Source: Bacteroides caccae (GTDB lineage Bacteria; Bacteroidota; Bacteroidia; Bacteroidales; Bacteroidaceae). Taken from it: a stretch of 64,000 bases of DNA. This document shows, piece after piece, positions 32,130 to 42,313 of this stretch. The translations under genes and the position numbers were made by a program. Position 1 is the stretch's first letter. Every line of letters starts with the position of its first letter. The notes beneath the pieces are model-generated. The model was not told where the DNA came from. It saw only the letters and a program-made list of their open reading frames with translations, and did no database searches. The DNA lies in NCBI RefSeq assembly GCF_002222615.2, contig NZ_CP022412.2, forward strand, positions 930,001-994,000, in the 5' to 3' direction.

Positions 32130-33371
32130 ATGAAAAAGATATTTATTCTGTTTGCCGTTGCTTTTATCGGCTTTGCTTCCTGCGTCGAAAGCAAGCAGGT
32201 TATGACGGTGACCGTGACCAATCCGCTGGGTTTAGAGCGTGCGGGAGAGATGATTGAAGTGCCGATGAGCTATGTCGTTGCCAAGTTGAAACTGGCCGAT
32301 ACAGCGCAAATTGTGGTGCTTGACATAGACGGACAGCAAGTTCCGTATCAGGTGACGTATGATGAGAAGGTTGTTTTCCCGGTTACGGTGAAAGCGAATG
32401 GTACAGCCACTTATACTATCCAACCGGGCACTCCGGAACCTTTCAACGTAATTGCCTGCGGCAAATATTATTCCGAACGTCTGGACGACGTTGCATGGGA
32501 GAATGACCTGGGCGGTTACCGTGCTTATGGTCCTGCATTGCAGGCAAGAGGTGAACGTGGCTTTGGTTATGACCTCTTTACGAAGTACAATACCACCCAG
32601 CCAGTTCTTGAAGGTATGTACGCTGAAGAACTCAATAAGGAAAAGCGTGCCAAGATAGCTGAACTGAGAAAAACAGATCCTAAAGCGGCTTCTGAACTGC
32701 AAAGAGCCATTTCCTATCATATCGATCACGGTTATGGAATGGACTGTTATGCCGTAGGTCCTACGCTGGGTTGCGGTACGGCTGCTTTGATGCAGGGCGA
32801 CACGATCATCTATCCATACTGTTATCGCACGCAGGAAATCCTTGATAATGGTCCGTTGCGTTTCACGGTGAAACTGGAATTTAATCCGTTGGTAGTCCGC
32901 GGTGATTCTAATGTGATAGAGACGCGTGTGATTACTCTGGATGCGGGTTCGTACCTCAATAAAGCCGTAATCTCTTATACAAACATGAAAGAGGCAATGC
33001 CTGTAACCACCGGAATCGTTCTCCGTGAGCCGGACGGCGTTGTTGCAGCCGATGCGGCGAATGGCTATATTACTTATGTAGATCCTACCACCGACCGCAA
33101 GGGAGGAAACGGCAAGATATTCATCGGTGCTGCTTTCCCTGCACAGGTGAAGGAGGCTAAAGTGGTGCTTCTTTCTGAAAAGGAAAAGAAGGAGCGTGGC
33201 GGAGCCGACGGTCATGTGTTGGCTATCAGCGAATACGAACCGGGTTCTGAATATACTTATTACTGGGGTTCTGCCTGGAATAAGGGGGCTATCAAAACTG
33301 TGGATGTTTGGAATAAATACATGGCCGAATATGCTCAGAAATTACGTGCTCCGCTGACGGTAGCATATTAG
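32130..33371 (+). CDS. DUF4861 family lipoprotein
   Basis: The 413-residue lipoprotein (GFASCVESK lipobox) is a large beta-rich protein of the DUF4861 family. Segments such as AWENDLGGYRAYGPALQARG and DHGYGMDCYAVGPTLGCG are typical. DUF4861 proteins are commonly encoded with kduI/kduD and polysaccharide lyase or GH105 genes in Bacteroides and are presumed to act on uronate-containing glycans outside the cytoplasm; no activity is proven. It follows kduD by 94 bp and a terminator-like hairpin follows it. Confidence 0.85.
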   Translation: MKKIFILFAVAFIGFASCVESKQVMTVTVTNPLGLERAGEMIEVPMSYVVAKLKLADTAQIVVLDIDGQQVPYQVTYDEKVVFPVTVKANGTATYTIQPGTPEPFNVIACGKYYSERLDDVAWENDLGGYRAYGPALQARGERGFGYDLFTKYNTTQPVLEGMYAEELNKEKRAKIAELRKTDPKAASELQRAISYHIDHGYGMDCYAVGPTLGCGTAALMQGDTIIYPYCYRTQEILDNGPLRFTVKLEFNPLVVRGDSNVIETRVITLDAGSYLNKAVISYTNMKEAMPVTTGIVLREPDGVVAADAANGYITYVDPTTDRKGGNGKIFIGAAFPAQVKEAKVVLLSEKEKKERGGADGHVLAISEYEPGSEYTYYWGSAWNKGAIKTVDVWNKYMAEYAQKLRAPLTVAY

Positions 33372-33400
33372 TAGCAAGTTTAAGAACTGAAAATAGCTGA

Positions 33401-33449
33401 AAAGTGGGGATTCCTGTAACTATATGGGAATTCCCATTGTTTTTTTTAG
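33401..33449 (+). terminator. Terminator-like hairpin after the DUF4861 gene
   Basis: TGGGGATTCC and GGGAATTCCCA form an imperfect stem followed by eight T. It could also limit leftward RNA arriving from the invertible promoter. Confidence 0.6.
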
Positions 33450-33506
33450 TAGAAATAATCTGCCGCGTAAGAAGGAATCCGGAGAGGAACGTTTAGTGTA
33501 TATTTG

Positions 33507-33752
33507 TTATGAAAGGGGATAACCGATTGATTTAGTTCTAGCAGAACTTGGTACATTGCTGATCGTGAACTTTCCGTCTACATTGGTAGTAGTTCCGATA
33601 GCTGTGCCCTTTACTAGTACGGATGCCCCTACAACAGGCTGATTGTCTTCTTCTGAAATGACAACCCCTGTGATTGTTTTAGGTGTTTGGGCAATCGCCA
33701 GACCGATTCCTGCTAATAAGCAGGCCAATAACAACACAAATCTTTTTTTCAT
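33507..33752 (-). CDS. Detached N-terminal part of SusC-like receptor (signal peptide plus N-terminal domain)
   Basis: On the minus strand this 81-residue frame encodes a signal peptide (residues 1-21) and a CarboxypepD_reg-like domain start (TITGVVISEEDNQPVVGASV, then GTTTNVDGKFTI). It runs out of homology at residue 73 (PSSART), exactly at the left inverted repeat. Eight unrelated residues follow before a stop. It is the missing 5' part of the gene at 34433, carried on the invertible segment and now facing away from it. A longer frame begins at 33821, but the ATG at 33752 gives the correct signal peptide and lies behind a good promoter. Confidence 0.88.
   Translation of the reverse strand: MKKRFVLLLACLLAGIGLAIAQTPKTITGVVISEEDNQPVVGASVLVKGTAIGTTTNVDGKFTISNVPSSARTKSIGYPLS
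33534..33549 (-). repeat. Left inverted repeat of the invertible segment
   Basis: On the plus strand it reads AGTTCTAGCAGAACTT, the exact reverse complement of 34417-34432. The site is itself a dyad (AGTTCT-AGC-AGAACT), as expected for a tyrosine-recombinase core site. It also encodes SSART in the SusC frame. Confidence 0.9.
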
Positions 33753-33808
33753 ACGCTCACTAAATATTTGGTTAATATAATAGTTGTCTATTTGCTTGTA
33801 TGCTTTTG

Positions 33809-33838
33809 CAAAAATAAGCACATTTTATTAAAAACAAA
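33809..33838 (-). promoter_or_regulatory. Promoter carried inside the invertible segment, reading leftward
   Basis: On the minus strand a TTTG -33 element (33835-33838) is spaced 18 bp from a TATTTTTG -7 box (33809-33816). The start would be near 33803, 50 bp before the ATG at 33752. In the present orientation it reads out of the segment to the left, away from the SusC body. Confidence 0.7.
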
Positions 33839-33839
33839 A

Positions 33840-34416
33840 CAAAACAATAAAAAATATATCAATTTGTTTGCGAATTAATTTGAAAGAACTATATCGAATT
33901 CAATTCTCATGAATCCATGTATATTATGTGCTTATTAACATTTTGTTATTATTAATAAGGTATATGATTATTCTAAGTACCCATAAAACTGGAATATCTT
34001 CTAAAAGAACAAGCTTAATTATATTGAAAATTTACACTTATTATTTTAGGGGAATTTAAGACCGGACGATTTGTGATGAGAGTAAATCGTGATGAAAAAC
34101 ATCTACATAATTTCTGAAATACCTTTCCTCAAATATAAAAATAACCAGTTAAAGGTGGCGTATTACTTAATGATAATTAAATAGACATATTGCTGTTATT
34201 ATGCAATATGATTACAATTATGAGTAACATATATATTCTCGTAAGCGTTCGATATGGAGAAGTATTTTTAATTCCTTGCATTTTTATTCTATATCCTGTA
34301 CTTATACCAAAATATTTGCAAACAGAAGGAAGCAGAATATCATTTTGACAGTTATGTTTTAAGTGATTTTATTGACAATTATTCCCGAAATTGTAAAATA
34401 CAGATGCTACAATATT
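33840..34416. other. AT-rich noncoding part of the invertible segment
   Basis: About 577 bp with no convincing gene or recombinase fragment. In the ON orientation it would lie upstream of the promoter, so it may hold regulator-binding sites or simply provide length for recombination. Confidence 0.5.
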
Positions 34417-34432
34417 AAGTTCTGCTAGAACT
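34417..34432 (+). repeat. Right inverted repeat of the invertible segment
   Basis: AAGTTCTGCTAGAACT is the exact reverse complement of 33534-33549. It directly precedes the open SusC frame, and its triplets read SSART in that frame. Confidence 0.9.
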
Positions 34433-37400
34433 TTGAAAATCAGCTACATCGGGATGAAAGCGCAAGAAGTATCCATTAAACCGGGGACGATGAAAATCGT
34501 TATGCAGCCGGATGCCGAAGTACTGGACGAAGTCGTGGTTACAGGTATGACAAAAGTAGACAAGCGTCTTTTTACTGGTGCGGCCGATCGTTTGACAGCG
34601 GCAAGTGTAAAGCTGGATGGTCTGCCTGATATTAGCCGTGGACTGGAAGGCCGGTCTGCCGGCGTATCTGTTCAAAACGTATCCGGTACCTTTGGTACAG
34701 CTCCTAAAATCAGGGTTCGTGGTGCCACGTCAATTTATGGTAATTCCAAACCATTGTGGGTAGTAGATGGCGTTATTATGGACGATGTCGTAGAAGTCAG
34801 TGCCGATCAATTATCTTCGGGAGATGCGGTTACTTTGATTAGTTCGGCTATTGCGGGGTTGAATGCAGATGACATTGAGAGTTTTCAAATATTGAAAGAC
34901 GGTTCGGCAACTTCTATTTACGGAGCGCGTGCAATGTCGGGTGTGATTGTTGTTACTACTAAGCAGGGTAAGGCAGGTACAAGTAGGTTGAGTTACACGG
35001 GTGAGTTTACTATGCGGATGAAGCCGTCTTACCGTAACTTTAACCTGATGAATTCTCAAGACCAAATGGGGATTTATAAAGAAATGCGTGATAAAGGTGA
35101 TTTGAACTTTGCCAGCGTGTATCGTGCTTCCAATAGTGGTGTGTATGGGAAAATGTATCAGTTGAATAACTGGTATGACAAAACCAACGGAATGTATGGT
35201 CTTGCTCAAACTCCTGAAGCTCAGAATGCTTATCTGCGCGAAGCCGAATATAGAAATACCGATTGGTTCGACTTGCTTTTCAGTAATGCCATTATGATGA
35301 ATCACTCCGTCAGTTATGCTACCGGTACGGAGAAATCCACTTCTTATGTCTCAGTAAGTGCCATGGTCGATCCCGGCTGGATGTTGCAAAATAAGGTGCA
35401 ACGATACACGGCTAATTTGAATAATAGTTATAAGATAGTCAAAGACTTGTCGCTCAACGTGATTGCCAATGCTTCTTATCGTCAGCAGAAAGCTCCGGGA
35501 ACATTGGGACAGAGTTCTGATGCAGCTTCCGGCACAGTGAGCCGTGGATTTGATATCAATCCTTATAGTTATGCTCTGAACACTTCCAGAACCCTTGATC
35601 CGAACGAGTATTATATGCGTAACTATTCTGATTTTAATATTTTCAACGAACTGAATGCCAACAATATCTCTTTGGACGTTATCGATTTGAAGTTTCAGGC
35701 GGAATTGAAATGGAAACTTTTCCGCAAACTGGAACTGAGCGCTTTAGGCGCCTTGAAGTATTCCGCCACATCACAAGAACACAAAATACGCGAAAACTCA
35801 AACCAGGCATTGGCATACCGGGCTATGGGAGATGGCACGATTATCAACCGTAACTCATGGCTGTATAAAGATCCGGATGATCCTTATGCACTTCCGGTGT
35901 CTATCTTGCCTAAGGGAGGTTTTTATAATACAGCGCAATATAAGATGCTGAGTTATGACTTCCGTGCTGCTGCTTCATATAATGATGTGTTTAATGATAC
36001 GCATATTGTCAACGTTTATGCAGGTATGGAATCGAATGCTCAAAATCGTACGGCAAATAGCTTTGACGGCTGGGGGATGCAGTATGAAAACGGTGAAATT
36101 CCTTTCTTTGATTACCTTGCTTTCAAGAAACTGCGCGAGGGTAATACAAACTATTATGACCTTACTAATACCAAGAAACGTAACGTAGCTTTCTTCGGAA
36201 CTGCCACTTACTCATATAAGGGACGGTATATCATTACAGGCACAGGTCGTTATGAAGGCTCCAACCGTTTGGGAAAGTCACGCTCTGCCCGCTGGTTGCC
36301 TACTTGGAATATTGCCGGTGCATGGAATATGCATGAAGAGGAGTTTTTCAAGAAACTAGAACCTGCTTTATCTCATTTTACATTGAAAGCCTCGTATAGT
36401 TTGACGGCTGATGTAGGTCCGAGTAATGTGTCAAACTCCAAGATTATTATTAACAGCTATACTCCTTGGCGTCCGTCGGCAGGTGTTTCTGAATCGGGAT
36501 TACAGATTGTAGATCTTGAAAACAGTGATTTGACCTACGAAAAGAAGCATGAGATGAATATCGGTTTGGATATGGGATTTCTTGACAACCGTATCAATCT
36601 TGAAGCTGCGTGGTACAAACGTGATAATTATGATTTGATCGGTGCAATTACAACTCAAGGTGTCGGTGGTTCGGTAGAACGTATGGCAAACGTAGCTTCT
36701 ATGAAGTCCCATGGCTTTGAATTTACTCTCTCTACCCGCAATATCGAAAGCCGTAACTTCCAATGGTCTACCGATTTCATATTCGGATATAATAAGACGG
36801 AAGTAACCGATTTCAAGTCACGTTCGCGTGTATTCGACTTGATCTCCGGCGTTGGGTTTGCCCGTGAAGGTTATCCGGTACGCGGTTTGTTTTCTATTCC
36901 GTTCGAAGGATTGGATTCGGATGGCTTTCCGATATTCAGTTTTAACGGAAAAACCGTAACGAAAGCAAACTATGGCAGTCTGAACCTGCAACAATCGACA
37001 GATGTGGATTTCCTTAAATATGAAGGTCCTACCGATCCGACTATAACAGGAAGTATTGGTAATATCTTTACCTATAAGAATTTCCGCTTAAATGTATTTG
37101 TCACTTACTCCGGTGGTAACAAAGTCCGCTTGGACCCGATGTTCCGTTCGTCGTATAGTGACTTGGATGCCACTCCGAAAGATTTCAAGAACCGTTGGGT
37201 GTTGCCGGGTGATGAAAAGGTGACGGACATCCCTGTAATGGCCAGTTCTTTTGAACGCAATCAATATGCGAACCTGAGTATTGCCTACAATTCGTATAAC
37301 TATTCTACTGCACGCATTGCCAGTGGTGCTTTCGTCCGCTTGAAAGAGGTTTCTCTTTCTTATGATTTTCCGAAAGAATGGCTGAAGTCTACCCCTATCA

Positions 37401-37552
37401 GTAGTGTCGGATTGAAAATACAGGGTACGAACCTTGCCCTGCTTTATGCAGACTCGAAATTGAATGGGCAGGACCCCGAATTCTTCCGTTCCGGTGGTGT
37501 GTCGGCACCTGTGCCCAAGCAGTTTACTTTGACATTGAAAGTTGGATTTTAA
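34433..37552 (+). CDS. SusC/RagA-like TonB-dependent receptor, body lacking its N-terminus (OFF state)
   Basis: The 1039-codon frame starts right after the right inverted repeat with no signal peptide. It reads the end of the N-terminal domain (LKISYIGMKAQEV), a TonB-box-like DEVVVTGM, the plug domain (SIYGNSKPLWVVDGVIMDD, SATSIYGARAMSGVIVVTTK) and a full beta-barrel to a terminal phenylalanine (KVGF). The first triplet is TTG and is not a real start. In this orientation the receptor should not be made. Inversion supplies 73 codons and a promoter, giving about 1112 residues, normal for SusC proteins. susD follows 14 bp downstream. Confidence 0.92.
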   Translation: MKISYIGMKAQEVSIKPGTMKIVMQPDAEVLDEVVVTGMTKVDKRLFTGAADRLTAASVKLDGLPDISRGLEGRSAGVSVQNVSGTFGTAPKIRVRGATSIYGNSKPLWVVDGVIMDDVVEVSADQLSSGDAVTLISSAIAGLNADDIESFQILKDGSATSIYGARAMSGVIVVTTKQGKAGTSRLSYTGEFTMRMKPSYRNFNLMNSQDQMGIYKEMRDKGDLNFASVYRASNSGVYGKMYQLNNWYDKTNGMYGLAQTPEAQNAYLREAEYRNTDWFDLLFSNAIMMNHSVSYATGTEKSTSYVSVSAMVDPGWMLQNKVQRYTANLNNSYKIVKDLSLNVIANASYRQQKAPGTLGQSSDAASGTVSRGFDINPYSYALNTSRTLDPNEYYMRNYSDFNIFNELNANNISLDVIDLKFQAELKWKLFRKLELSALGALKYSATSQEHKIRENSNQALAYRAMGDGTIINRNSWLYKDPDDPYALPVSILPKGGFYNTAQYKMLSYDFRAAASYNDVFNDTHIVNVYAGMESNAQNRTANSFDGWGMQYENGEIPFFDYLAFKKLREGNTNYYDLTNTKKRNVAFFGTATYSYKGRYIITGTGRYEGSNRLGKSRSARWLPTWNIAGAWNMHEEEFFKKLEPALSHFTLKASYSLTADVGPSNVSNSKIIINSYTPWRPSAGVSESGLQIVDLENSDLTYEKKHEMNIGLDMGFLDNRINLEAAWYKRDNYDLIGAITTQGVGGSVERMANVASMKSHGFEFTLSTRNIESRNFQWSTDFIFGYNKTEVTDFKSRSRVFDLISGVGFAREGYPVRGLFSIPFEGLDSDGFPIFSFNGKTVTKANYGSLNLQQSTDVDFLKYEGPTDPTITGSIGNIFTYKNFRLNVFVTYSGGNKVRLDPMFRSSYSDLDATPKDFKNRWVLPGDEKVTDIPVMASSFERNQYANLSIAYNSYNYSTARIASGAFVRLKEVSLSYDFPKEWLKSTPISSVGLKIQGTNLALLYADSKLNGQDPEFFRSGGVSAPVPKQFTLTLKVGF

Positions 37553-37566
37553 ATAGTTGAAAGCGT

Positions 37567-39069
37567 ATGAAAACAAGAAATAAAATAATATTATTGCTGG
37601 CACTCGCATTGACGTGCATGATTACTTCATGTGAAAGTTATCTGGATACCATGCCCGATCAGCGTACGGAATTGAACTCTGTGAGAAAAGTGAAAGATTT
37701 GCTGATGTCTGCCTATTCTACAGCTTCATCCATACAAATGGAAGAATTTATGTCGGACAACCGTATGGACAATGGAGAAAAATATGGTTTTCCTTCCAAT
37801 ATACTGATGCAGGGTTACTATTGGGAAGAAATGACCGATATCAATCAAGATACGCCAAGATATTTATGGAATGGATGTTATAGTGCGATTGCTGCTGCTA
37901 ACCAGGCATTGCAGGCGATTGAAGAACTGGGAGATCCGGAGGAGGCGCAGCCTTATAAGGGGGAAGCGCTGATGTGTCGTGCCTATGGGCATTTTGCTTT
38001 AGCCAAAATATTCTGTATGGCTTATGGGGATGATGCAGATACTAATCTGGGAATACCCTATATCACTGCTCCCGAAACAAATGTCGGTGTACAATATGAG
38101 CGTGGTACATTGGCAGAGACGTATGCCATGATTGATAAAGATATTGAAGAAGGATTACCGCTGATTAGTTCCGAGGCCTATGATATTCCCTTATATCACT
38201 TCAATCAGAATGCAGCCTATGCTTTTGCCGCACAATTCAATTTGTTTTATAATAAGTTCGACAAGGCGATTCGTTATGCTACGGAGGCTATTGGTGAGGA
38301 CCCGTCATCTGTGTTGAGAAATATGGGAGGATATGCTCAATTTCCCAGTTCTATGGAATATACGCTGGCATACATTAGTAGCGACGAACCGGCTAATCTG
38401 ATGTTACAGCAAACGATGTCATGGTGGGGGAGTAACTATAAATCGGCTTATCGCTACGGTCATAGCCGTGAGATTTGTGAGAAACAGACTATCTGGTCGA
38501 AGGGTCCTTATGGTAGTTTGAAAGTATATGAAACAGTCTTGGGATATGGTGACCAGTCTATTTTTGTTCCTAAAATGGACCAGTTTAAAGAGATTGCCAA
38601 TGCCATTACAGGTAGTTATTATGGACGTCAGGTTGCGTTTGCTTTTACCACTGATAAGACATTGTTGAATCGTGCTGAGGCTTATGTGCTCTCTAAGCAA
38701 TATGATAAGGCAGTGAACGATTTACAGTATTGGTATCGTATTAAAGCGGCTACTAAAGTACCCGACAAAGATGAACTGAATCTTTTTTATGAGACAGTAG
38801 ATCCTACGACTAACGGTAAACCACTTGATCCCAAGTTTGCTCTGGAAGCAGGATTACAGACAAATTTGCTGAAAGCAGTCATTCATGCCCGTCGTATTGA
38901 GACGGTGCACGAAGGGGAAAGGTGGCAGGATATTAAGCGTTTCGGTATTGAGATTTCCCATAATATAGAGAACGAATCTCCTATTGTGCTGAAAGCTCAC
39001 GACCTCCGTAAAGCTGTTCAAATTCCGGCGTCTGTCGTAGAGGCTGGTATGCAGCCTAATCCAAGATAG
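37567..39069 (+). CDS. SusD/RagB-like surface nutrient-binding lipoprotein
   Basis: The 500-residue lipoprotein (ITSCESYLD lipobox) has the SusD-like helical N-terminus (YLDTMPDQRTELNS) and the typical NQALQAIEEL and GEALMCRAYGHFALAKIF segments. The late RRIETVHEGERWQDIKRFG segment is also seen. It caps the SusC barrel and binds the ligand at the cell surface. Because no promoter is seen between the two genes, its expression should follow the inversion state of the upstream segment. Confidence 0.94.
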   Translation: MKTRNKIILLLALALTCMITSCESYLDTMPDQRTELNSVRKVKDLLMSAYSTASSIQMEEFMSDNRMDNGEKYGFPSNILMQGYYWEEMTDINQDTPRYLWNGCYSAIAAANQALQAIEELGDPEEAQPYKGEALMCRAYGHFALAKIFCMAYGDDADTNLGIPYITAPETNVGVQYERGTLAETYAMIDKDIEEGLPLISSEAYDIPLYHFNQNAAYAFAAQFNLFYNKFDKAIRYATEAIGEDPSSVLRNMGGYAQFPSSMEYTLAYISSDEPANLMLQQTMSWWGSNYKSAYRYGHSREICEKQTIWSKGPYGSLKVYETVLGYGDQSIFVPKMDQFKEIANAITGSYYGRQVAFAFTTDKTLLNRAEAYVLSKQYDKAVNDLQYWYRIKAATKVPDKDELNLFYETVDPTTNGKPLDPKFALEAGLQTNLLKAVIHARRIETVHEGERWQDIKRFGIEISHNIENESPIVLKAHDLRKAVQIPASVVEAGMQPNPR

Positions 39070-39097
39070 TTTAATGTTAGATAATAAAGAATTGATT

Positions 39098-39967
39098 ATG
39101 AAAAATTGGTATATATATTTGCTTTGTATTCTGGTGAGCAGCAACTTCTTCGCCTGCCAGGACGATGACTTGGAAGACCAGAGTATTTTTGATGCATCAG
39201 AGAAAGAAAAGAGTGAGTTTGACCGCTGGTTACTCGAAAACTACGTCAATCCCTATAACATCGACTTTAAATACAGAATGGAACATATTGAATCCGATTA
39301 TACGCACAATCTTGTACCTACGGACTTTTGGTTGAGTGTGAAATTGGCGAAGATAGTGAAACATTGCTGGCTGGAGGCCTATGATGAAGTGGGAGGTCTT
39401 GATTTTACACGTGCTTGTGCTCCGAAAGTTATTCATCTTATAGGTTCTGCTTCGTGGGATAAGGGGACGTATACACTGGGAACTGCCGAAGGCGGACTGA
39501 AAGTGACTTTGTATATGGGTAACTGGCTGGATTTGACGAATGTTGACCGCATGAATGAATATTACTTCAAGGTGATGCATCATGAGTTTGCCCACATTCT
39601 GCATCAGAAAAAAAATTATCCGGTAGATTATGATAAGATTAGTGCAGGTAATTATACACCTACCGGTTGGCAGAACCGTAAATTGGCAGAGGTCGCTCCT
39701 TTGGGATTTGTCACACCGTATGCCGGTAGTAAACCGAGTGAGGATATTGCTGAAGTGACAGCCTGTTTCCTGACTTATCCGGAAGCACAGTGGGAAAATG
39801 TTATGACTCTGGCTGGAGAAAAAGGTAAACCGATCATTGACCAAAAGCTGGCAATGGTGAAGAAGTATATGAAAGATTCCTGGCAAGTGGACCTTGATCT
39901 GCTTCGCAAAGTGATTGCACGTCGTACTAATGAGATTAGTGAACTGGATTTGGATCATATTTATTAA
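39098..39967 (+). CDS. Putative zinc metallohydrolase lipoprotein linked to SusCD import
   Basis: The 289-residue lipoprotein (NFFACQDDD lipobox) carries a zincin motif, HHEFAHILHQ, with the two His and the Glu intact. A downstream SEDIAEVTACFL region could supply the third ligand. It matches the class of substrate-import-associated zinc metallohydrolase lipoproteins encoded with TonB receptors in Bacteroidetes. A role cutting peptides or glycopeptides at the surface before import is inferred. The ATG at 39098 is chosen over an in-frame ATG at 39074 because it begins the signal peptide. Confidence 0.87.
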   Translation: MKNWYIYLLCILVSSNFFACQDDDLEDQSIFDASEKEKSEFDRWLLENYVNPYNIDFKYRMEHIESDYTHNLVPTDFWLSVKLAKIVKHCWLEAYDEVGGLDFTRACAPKVIHLIGSASWDKGTYTLGTAEGGLKVTLYMGNWLDLTNVDRMNEYYFKVMHHEFAHILHQKKNYPVDYDKISAGNYTPTGWQNRKLAEVAPLGFVTPYAGSKPSEDIAEVTACFLTYPEAQWENVMTLAGEKGKPIIDQKLAMVKKYMKDSWQVDLDLLRKVIARRTNEISELDLDHIY

Positions 39968-39983
39968 AACAAACGCTGAGAAT

Positions 39984-41258
39984 ATGAAAAAACTGATTTA
40001 TACTTTACTGGCATTTGCCACTGTCTGCTTTTCGTGTGTGCAGGATGTAGATGATGTATACGATAAACCTGTTGCCCAGCGGGTAGAAGAAGCCGTTCAA
40101 GAATATCATGATTTGCTGGTAAGTTCCGAGCACGGGTGGTTAATGGAGTATTATCCGCATTCTTCGCAGATATATGGTGGTTTCAACTACATTATGAAGT
40201 TTAAAGGAGGGGATAAAGTGACTATTTCTACTGATGCTTTTGGGAAACCGGAGGAAACGGAAGAGAGCCTTTTTTCTATTAAGAAGGATATCGGACCGAC
40301 CCTTAACTTTGACACTTATAATAGCTTGTTCCATTATTTCTCTGATTCGGATATATCCGGAGGAGCAGGAACGGGCAAAGGGTATGAGGGTGATTATGAA
40401 TTTCTTTTGCGCTCGCATACTGAGAATGAGATTGTCCTTCGAGGGAAGAAAACGAAGAATATAATTCGTATGACCCGTCTGGCGGAAGATGCTACACCTT
40501 ATCTGGCTGCTGCTATCCGAGTGGATGAAGAAATGAACCGTTTGGAAGGGGTATTGGGGTTCAGTGGCATGATGAATGGGAAAGAACTGGCTCTGCTTTA
40601 TACGGATTCCCATACATTTAATGTGGTATATGACGGACAGGAAACGTCTACTTCTTTCATGCCGACGGCAACAGGAATACAGTTTTATCTTCCGGTGGAA
40701 GTTGGTGGCAAAGAGCTGCACCGCTTTACTTGGTCGGCTGCAAATGAAACACTGGTAGCTGAAAATGCTCCGGATGTTGTGTTGAAAGTGGATTATGATC
40801 CGGAATATATCATTTACGCACAATATTTGGGCAAGTATACGATGAATTACCGACGTGGTGAGAATACTCCTGTATTGTCTCTGGAAATCGAGTTAGTGAA
40901 GAAAGAGGATATGAAAAGTTATACAATTAAAGGTATGTTGCCGATTGATCTGACAATGATTTATAATAAGGCAGAACGGCGTATGGAGCTCCTGAATCAG
41001 AAGTTGACGGACGGTAGTGAAGCTTATTTGAGCATTTGGATGGTGAATCCCGGAAGCCTGACGTATGGAGGAACTGATTTTGTGAATGGTATGTACGGCA
41101 AACTGAAAGAAGGTTCTGACAACGAATATGAGTTTGTAGACGACGGAAGGAAAGCTGATTTTGTAACTCGCGGTATGATTCTGTGGAGCAAGGCGGGTGA
41201 ATATAAGGCTTATGCCGAATCTCGTTTTGCATTTATCACTCTTGTTAAACATGAATAA
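39984..41258 (+). CDS. DUF4302 family lipoprotein
   Basis: The 424-residue lipoprotein (CFSCVQDVDDVYD lipobox) matches DUF4302, with early HDLLVSSEHGWLMEYYPHS and GGFNYIMKFKGGDKVTI segments. Such proteins follow SusC-SusD-metallohydrolase genes in many Bacteroides operons; the function is unknown. An upstream frame extension to 39915 lies inside the preceding gene and is not used. Confidence 0.85.
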   Translation: MKKLIYTLLAFATVCFSCVQDVDDVYDKPVAQRVEEAVQEYHDLLVSSEHGWLMEYYPHSSQIYGGFNYIMKFKGGDKVTISTDAFGKPEETEESLFSIKKDIGPTLNFDTYNSLFHYFSDSDISGGAGTGKGYEGDYEFLLRSHTENEIVLRGKKTKNIIRMTRLAEDATPYLAAAIRVDEEMNRLEGVLGFSGMMNGKELALLYTDSHTFNVVYDGQETSTSFMPTATGIQFYLPVEVGGKELHRFTWSAANETLVAENAPDVVLKVDYDPEYIIYAQYLGKYTMNYRRGENTPVLSLEIELVKKEDMKSYTIKGMLPIDLTMIYNKAERRMELLNQKLTDGSEAYLSIWMVNPGSLTYGGTDFVNGMYGKLKEGSDNEYEFVDDGRKADFVTRGMILWSKAGEYKAYAESRFAFITLVKHE

Positions 41259-41266
41259 AAAAAGGA

Positions 41267-42313
41267 ATGACTATGAGAAAAATATATTCTATATTACTTT
41301 GTGTGCTATGCTTGTCGGCTGTTGGTTGTAGTGATGATAAGGATACGGCGGATGTAGCATTAAAGGCGATAAGGTCGGATGTTAAGTTTTCTGCGGATGG
41401 TGGCACAGGAACTATTGAACTGTCAGGCGGTAAACAGGTAAGTGCCACCTCGGATGTCGCTTGGTGTAAGGTAGCCAGTGTGTCCGATCAGGAAGTCAGT
41501 TTGGTTGTTGAGGCTAATCTTTCTATATCCAGTCGTACCACAATGGTGGTCATACAATCCGGGGAAGATATATTGCAAGTTCCCGTGACCCAGTTGGGCG
41601 ATACTTTTATTTGTGATGTAGAAGGTACAAAGGATTTTCTTATGCAAGGGGGTGAAGCTGTTTTCACTTTGCATACCCGGCGCGAATATAGTATTCAATC
41701 TACTGCCGAATGGCTGACTTATGAATTGAAAGGCGATCAGCTTCATGTGGTGGTTTCTCCTATGTTGGACGGTACGGATTATCGGGAAGGGACGTTGACC
41801 GTTCAGAGTGGGAAAAATGAATGGTCGGCGACTTGCGTTCAGCGAGGATTGTCCGGTACATATACTATGATGCATACCCGTAATGACGGAAAACGTTATA
41901 CGGGTAGTTGTACCTTTACGGCAACAGATGAGAAGGGAGTGTATGATTTGATAGCAAAAGATGTTCCGCTCAATAATGGTGTACCTTTTAAAGCTGTATT
42001 GACTGACGGACGGCTGGTTATCAACTTTGATAATCAGTATTTGGGATTTATCTCTCCTAATTACATTTATCTCTGTGCGTATGATAAAGCGGCTAATGTA
42101 TTAACTTGGGGAGGAAATATCATGTATGTTGCTGATTTGCAGTTTACAAAAGCAGGATTACCATTCTTTGAGTTTAAAGATGATGGAACATGGAAAGATC
42201 ATAAAGTAGACGGATTTATGTACGGCATTTTTGATAAGAAATGGGAAAACGGAGGCCAGTTTGCCGGAAAAAGTTACGGGTATGCGGTTGATATTGTAAT
42301 GGAACACCAATGA
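41267..42313 (+). CDS. Surface lipoprotein with BACON-like N-terminal domains
   Basis: The 348-residue lipoprotein (AVGCSDDKD lipobox) has two BACON/Ig-like segments at ~35-205. These are visible as WCKVASVSDQEVSLVVEAN and later the AEWLTYELKGDQLHVVVSP block. A beta-rich C-terminal domain follows. BACON domains are thought to bind carbohydrate or mucin. ATGs at 41267 and 41273 are both possible starts. It is the last gene of the phase-variable operon. Confidence 0.8.
   Translation: MTMRKIYSILLCVLCLSAVGCSDDKDTADVALKAIRSDVKFSADGGTGTIELSGGKQVSATSDVAWCKVASVSDQEVSLVVEANLSISSRTTMVVIQSGEDILQVPVTQLGDTFICDVEGTKDFLMQGGEAVFTLHTRREYSIQSTAEWLTYELKGDQLHVVVSPMLDGTDYREGTLTVQSGKNEWSATCVQRGLSGTYTMMHTRNDGKRYTGSCTFTATDEKGVYDLIAKDVPLNNGVPFKAVLTDGRLVINFDNQYLGFISPNYIYLCAYDKAANVLTWGGNIMYVADLQFTKAGLPFFEFKDDGTWKDHKVDGFMYGIFDKKWENGGQFAGKSYGYAVDIVMEHQ

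Follow-up and report, generated by a model that had tools for sequence, protein, structure and literature searches.

The 64-kb window analysed here (the whole stretch of Bacteroides caccae DNA, 64,000 nucleotides of contig NZ_CP022412.2) holds a SusC-type receptor gene in two pieces on opposite strands, followed by the gene for a SusD partner and three further genes assigned to the same operon by position. The pieces meet the ends of an 899-bp segment bounded by inverted repeats, the features of the locus being as follows.

32130..33371, plus strand: left neighbour, a DUF4861 protein and not a second SusC partner (domain profiles)
33507..33533, minus strand: OFF-state tail KSIGYPLS and the stop closing the truncated frame (translation)
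33534..33752, minus strand: SusC start module with the ATG, signal peptide (by eye) and first 73 residues (in silico flip and domain profile)
33809..33816, minus strand: Bacteroides-type -7 element TATTTTTG, 57-64 nt before the ATG
33534..34432, no strand: invertible segment, 899 bp, in the OFF orientation (repeat pair and in silico flip; opposite state in protein P0001)
33534..33549, plus strand: left inverted repeat AGTTCTAGCAGAACTT, core AGTTC-N5-GAACT (repeat search)
34417..34432, plus strand: right inverted repeat AAGTTCTGCTAGAACT, reading SSART in the SusC frame (repeat search and in silico flip)
34433..37552, plus strand: SusC remainder of 1039 aa with the rest of CarbopepD_reg_2, plug and barrel, lacking a start module in this orientation
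37567..39069, plus strand: SusD partner (SusD-like_3, SusD_RagB; domain profiles)
39074..39967, plus strand: putative zinc metallopeptidase (Peptidase_Mx1), same operon by position
39915..41258, plus strand: DUF4302/DUF4987 protein, same operon by position
41267..42313, plus strand: BACON-domain protein, same operon by position

The listed TTG start of the DUF4302/DUF4987 gene overlaps the preceding gene and the true start probably lies later. In the OFF state the promoter is aimed at the DUF4861 gene, at its 3′ end. On the plus strand, the stretch separating that gene from the module reads a palindrome at 33424-33437 followed by a T-rich run, which may form a putative end of the DUF4861 transcript.

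The invertible segment and the SusC reading frame

The arms at 33534-33549 and 34417-34432 are complementary at 16 of 16 positions with 867 nt between them, in keeping with the 16-bp perfect inverted repeat described previously at the split gene. Among perfect inverted repeats of at least 16 bp with non-overlapping arms and a spacing of up to 2 kb, the 64-kb window contains this pair and one small hairpin near 9.2 kb and nothing else, with 40 dinucleotide shuffles of the window yielding one comparable pair in total (0.025 per shuffle). The recombination site is AGTTC-N5-GAACT, and the pattern GTTCTRSYAGAAC occurs in the 4.57-Mb genome solely at the two ends of the segment. A search of Rfam with 33300-34600 gave as its sole match a snoRNA family below the gathering score, which was taken as chance.

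Inverting 33534-34432 in silico fuses ATG...VPSSART in frame to LKISYIG and gives 1112 residues followed by a stop. The preliminary description had placed the repeats in the SusC frame and expected an uninterrupted receptor of about 1112 residues on inversion, and the computed fusion bears this out with no frameshift at the junction. It had likewise read the gene as split in the OFF orientation, which agrees with a module on the minus strand, a remainder on the plus strand and an open frame restored by the flip. Its proposal that promoter, secretion signal and N-terminal domain move together stands for the promoter motif, the start codon and the signal peptide, the last recognised by eye and not with a prediction tool. 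The domain travels only in part, the junction cutting inside CarbopepD_reg_2 and leaving profile positions 1-50 of 88 on the segment. The minus-strand open reading frame at 33507-33752 assigned to the signal peptide is present, but the module proper is 33534-33752. This ends in SSART, the OFF orientation then adding the eight codons KSIGYPLS and a stop. The remainder of the segment is a variable spacer.

For Bacteroides promoters the -7 consensus is given as TAnnTTTG in PMC4747536. In the window a TTTG lies 18 nt further upstream of the element TATTTTTG. When 16 start modules were aligned and read by eye the -7 element occupied the same column in 14, being absent at that column in the modules of G175 and G134. 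In each of the 14 OFF modules examined a stop follows within eight codons past the site, in five of them at once; of 60 other offsets taken as starts in the flank of the window itself, 30% do the same. These early stops are suggestive only, since many of the loci share ancestry and the next codon often takes its first base from the site.

The opposite orientation

The joined form was searched against 5.8 billion predicted proteins with 7999 candidates scored. One result, P0001, a protein of 1136 residues on a 14,192-base contig, is the joined form, differing from the flipped window at one residue in 1112. Its extra leader requires a 1-base insertion relative to the window DNA and P0001 is therefore taken to come from another strain of the same lineage. 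Judged from this one public protein, known here as a protein alone, the flipped state exists in the same lineage, and the opposite orientation on which the preliminary description had made its case depend is thereby supplied by a relative. A second protein, P0007, in which a front resembling an alpha-L-fucosidase gives way to this SusC from residue 230, was not used as evidence and probably comes from a chimeric contig.

The switch in related genomes

The first 339 residues of the plus-strand SusC part were searched in 158 genomes of the genus, giving matches at E 1e-100 in 55 and 85 listed places. Of these places 49 were examined (40 fetched and nine from the window and an earlier locus set), those omitted being mostly longer-frame receptors of about 1200 aa, weaker matches and contig ends. 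Other loci of the earlier set, 80 loci from a scan of genome_contigs and the record MT836335.1 were also examined. Short loci (L001-L038), duplicates (L059, L060 and L063, the only duplicates removed) and a contig end (L162) were dropped before the count. A junction was scored as a switch where the arms matched AGTTC-N5-GAACT at 9-10 of 10 positions with a facing copy matching at 14-15 of 15 within 2.5 kb.

On this basis 17 of 130 SusC junctions carry the core and a facing copy, 15 of them OFF and two joined, spread over 12 genomes of the genus (this one included) and one 'Bacteriophage sp.' record. OFF junctions were found twice each in G012 and G068 and once each in the window, G001, G021, G064, G126, G132, G134, G175, G179 and MT836335.1, with a further one in a two-partner locus of G001, at the SusC to which the module is not joined. 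The joined junctions are the other SusC of that locus and the one in G009. G062 is joined as well, its facing copy matching at only 13 of 15 positions and falling outside the 17; counting it, 12 genomes of the genus besides this one have a switch built in this way, the OFF orientation being found in 10 of them. In the two-partner locus (G001:C48:7171-9776, L041) one module lies between two facing SusC genes and is joined to one only, an arrangement that makes it an either/or version of the switch. In the ON loci of G009 and G062 a single base of one arm is changed (AGGACT), for which reason both switches might be locked ON. The left site of G012:C12 also has one altered base, the contig G155:C51 begins 16 bases before the junction and hence at the site, and perfect arms stand without a good facing copy at two junctions, L178 (a contig end) and L169 (joined).

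No relative of the switch was found in a scan of viral_contigs. The phages collection gave one record, MT836335.1 (L184, 7199-11011), with a SusC switch that is OFF; this unannotated human-stool 'Bacteriophage sp.' record is probably bacterial DNA or a prophage border. Separately, in two loci from Prevotella MAGs (L067 and L078) a pair of SusC genes face each other, both equipped with a start module, and identical inverted stretches of 56-65 bp lie at the same junction; these are possibly exchange systems of another type.

The modules appear to have been exchanged between SusC genes. Five start modules (window, G068a, G012C34, G012C12 and G064) are 88-94% identical, but over their first 900 nt the SusC sequences that follow them sort into three groups, with no more than 70-73% identity between groups. 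Compared with the window, G012C12 and G064 are 84-85% identical over 4 kb of upstream flank and module and 68-69% identical in SusC. An exchange breaking exactly at the sites was not supported, the identity profiles placing the change within the variable spacer and away from the site, and for this reason homologous recombination explains the exchange as well as site-specific recombination does.

Other site pairs in the genome

The genome contains 18 AGTTC-N5-GAACT sites, compared with six for a reversed-pattern control. Four facing pairs, 332-884 bp apart, each lie beside a SusC-type operon, the window holding one and two of the others being as follows.

513790/514131 (G000:C1:513790-514145; L185): facing pair before a SusC-type operon (site search)
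4475455/4475787 (G000:C1:4475455-4475801; L180): facing pair before a SusC-type operon with a TIG/NHL protein first (site search)

Inverting either of these yields no new long frame, so that both look like promoter switches and are probably invertible promoters. The remaining pair, 1936314/1936696 (G000:C1:1936314-1936710, L179), has a 23-bp repeat and splits a FecR-like anti-sigma gene that precedes another SusC, with an in silico flip giving 313 residues. This genome and G064 have the gene split (OFF); in G009 it is whole, and the whole form matches FecR and FecR_C. The start-module design is therefore not limited to SusC.

The candidate recombinase

The genome has 33 matches to tyrosine recombinases (PF00589), 32 of them over the cut-off, and one to a serine recombinase (PF00239, 213820-214275). 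None of these falls inside the 64-kb window, and the 25 kb around each of the other three site pairs are free of them as well, leaving no local enzyme as an obvious alternative to one acting from a distance. A candidate is encoded in a separate SusC shufflon of the same genome (G000:C1:92856-95389; L046 8857-11390) with a 44-bp repeat, in which a module is joined to one SusC, a second SusC without a module lies opposite, and the recombinase gene stands between them.

G000:C1:93546-94736: P0121 gene, Tsr0667-family recombinase candidate, inside the shufflon

P0121 shares 76% identity with P0291, a protein named by NCBI as Tsr0667 family; in NCBIfam no model passed the cut-off for P0121 and none carried the Tsr0667 name, so that the name comes from P0291 alone. 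At E 1e-60 P0121 has one match in its own genome, with 11 of 39 first-look candidates scored. A homologue is present in 95 of the 158 genomes of the genus and in 12 of the 13 that bear a switch (one-sided Fisher p 0.010, uncorrected for kinship). In B. fragilis Tsr0667 is reported in PMC4747536 to act in trans, inverting three SusC/SusD clusters and nine other regions. Together the co-occurrence, the family identity and this account make it likely that P0121 acts in trans on the sites of the window. The number of AGTTCWNNNAGAACT sites per genome points the same way (mean 2.27 with the invertase and 1.21 without, p 0.028; control patterns 1.30 and 1.10), giving weak support because per Mb the difference is small (p 0.40, and p 0.05 when the genomes taken are those of 90% completeness or more).

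That a recombinase outside the Tsr0667 family performs the inversion is rather unlikely. It would draw on the many other recombinase matches in the genome, on the near-equal site density with and without the gene, and on G126, which has the switch and in whose 81% complete genome no P0121 homologue was detected. Moreover, the sites of the candidate's own shufflon match the AGTTC-N5-GAACT arms at only 8 of 10 positions. Against this, P0121 homologues accompany nearly all of the switches, Tsr0667 has a reported reach in trans, and the surroundings of all four site pairs are free of recombinase matches. P0121 is the best candidate for the enzyme.

Relation to known inversion systems

The preliminary description had noted that SusC inversions are known in B. 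fragilis, and this is so: the Tsr0667 shufflon inverts DNA at SusC/SusD pairs (Nakayama-Imaohji 2009, via PMC4747536 and PMC11852207). Both systems invert at a SusC/SusD pair, and a Tsr0667-family gene is present in this genome. They differ in that the window has one module and one SusC, giving ON or OFF instead of a choice of partner, and no recombinase in the segment. The site also differs from that of the genome's own shufflon, having two full arms, AGTTC-N5-GAACT, where the latter reads AGTTCTGCAAAGACT. A shufflon would have several SusC partners per expression site; here the recombination site is within the susC coding sequence and a Tsr0667-family invertase, P0121, is in the genome, but there is a single partner, the left neighbour being the DUF4861 gene. 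With only one partner the locus is not a shufflon in the strict sense, though it is probably run by a shufflon's kind of enzyme.

It could instead be what is left of a multi-partner SusC shufflon after loss of the other partner, a history we regard as distinctly unlikely. The two-partner form in G001 uses the same kind of site and this genome retains a SusC shufflon with a Tsr0667-family gene. Left of the segment, however, no SusC piece accompanies the DUF4861 gene, and among the switch loci found only that in G001 has partners on both sides (tblastn, for which a very short remnant would be below detection).

The locus is an inverton and works like one, the segment being bounded by inverted repeats and both orientations having been observed (OFF in the window, joined as protein P0001). 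Bacteroides invertible promoters include those of capsule loci with Mpi and those of Tsr19/BF2766, as set out in PMC4747536, where invertases acting on distant sites are also known. The window resembles these in having a promoter between inverted repeats. A simple invertible promoter carries no coding sequence, whereas this segment adds the start codon, the signal peptide and 73 codons, and its right site lies in coding sequence. In intragenic invertons, reportedly described by Chanin in 2024 (a study to which PMC12632263 and PMC12548429 refer), the inversion is said to fall inside a coding sequence. That holds here as well, with the difference that the start of the gene moves with the promoter, so that the whole operon would be expected to be lost, beyond a recoded or truncated protein. 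A survey of 39 sequenced gut Bacteroidales genomes gives 311 invertible regions, intragenic regions and neighbours of SusC/SusD included (PMC10939037), and loci of this kind are therefore already known.

A probable two-state switch within susC

The sequences show the sites, the reading frame, the promoter motif and the conservation, and public data show both orientations. Taken as a whole they are best explained, with high confidence, by a two-state phase switch inside the susC gene, the invertase most likely being P0121. Two inverted AGTTC-N5-GAACT sites would flank the promoter, start codon, signal peptide and first 73 residues, and a site-specific recombinase would invert the segment. For the enzyme, the expression states and the benefit we infer the following. 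In the ON state the module would be fused in frame to the 1039 residues, with SusC and the SusD/Mx1/DUF4302/BACON operon expected to be made. In the OFF state, as in this genome, the module would point away, giving a short secreted stub that stops eight codons past the site and leaving the operon without a promoter and SusC without an export signal. The enzyme would most likely be the Tsr0667-family P0121, acting in trans from the separate SusC shufflon near 0.09 Mb. The benefit may be bet-hedging at the level of surface receptors, in the face of phage, immune recognition or shifts in nutrients.

It is highly unlikely that the recorded orientation is a choice of the assembly without biological meaning. 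A short-read assembly can place an 899-bp segment either way if both forms are present; the repeat pair and the in-frame fusion are nevertheless independent of the orientation drawn, and OFF recurs in the 10 other genomes noted above. That the segment inverted once and is now frozen, the gene being an OFF-state pseudogene, is barely credible: most of the switch-type junctions (15 of 17) are OFF and the orientation in this strain is known from the assembly alone, but both sites are perfect, nothing interrupts the 1112-residue frame, promoter motif and start have been kept, the near-identical joined form P0001 exists and 12 further genomes of the genus have the site pair as well.

Beyond the two-state switch itself, the site pairs could form a regulon in which one Tsr0667-type invertase works in trans on AGTTC-N5-GAACT sites, connecting and disconnecting promoter and N-terminal modules of different families (SusC receptors and the FecR anti-sigma factor controlling another SusC), with modules also exchanged between SusC genes in evolution. 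This we hold tentatively, at slightly under an even chance.

Significance

Import by gut Bacteroides is governed by SusC/SusD pairs, and both phages and antibodies have access to these pairs. The loss of promoter, start codon and export signal together would make for a tight OFF state. Because a gene caller sees two unrelated pieces, annotations and surveys for invertible promoters can readily overlook a receptor of this sort. The FecR case points to control of an anti-sigma factor by the same device, which would extend its reach beyond the receptor itself to regulation.
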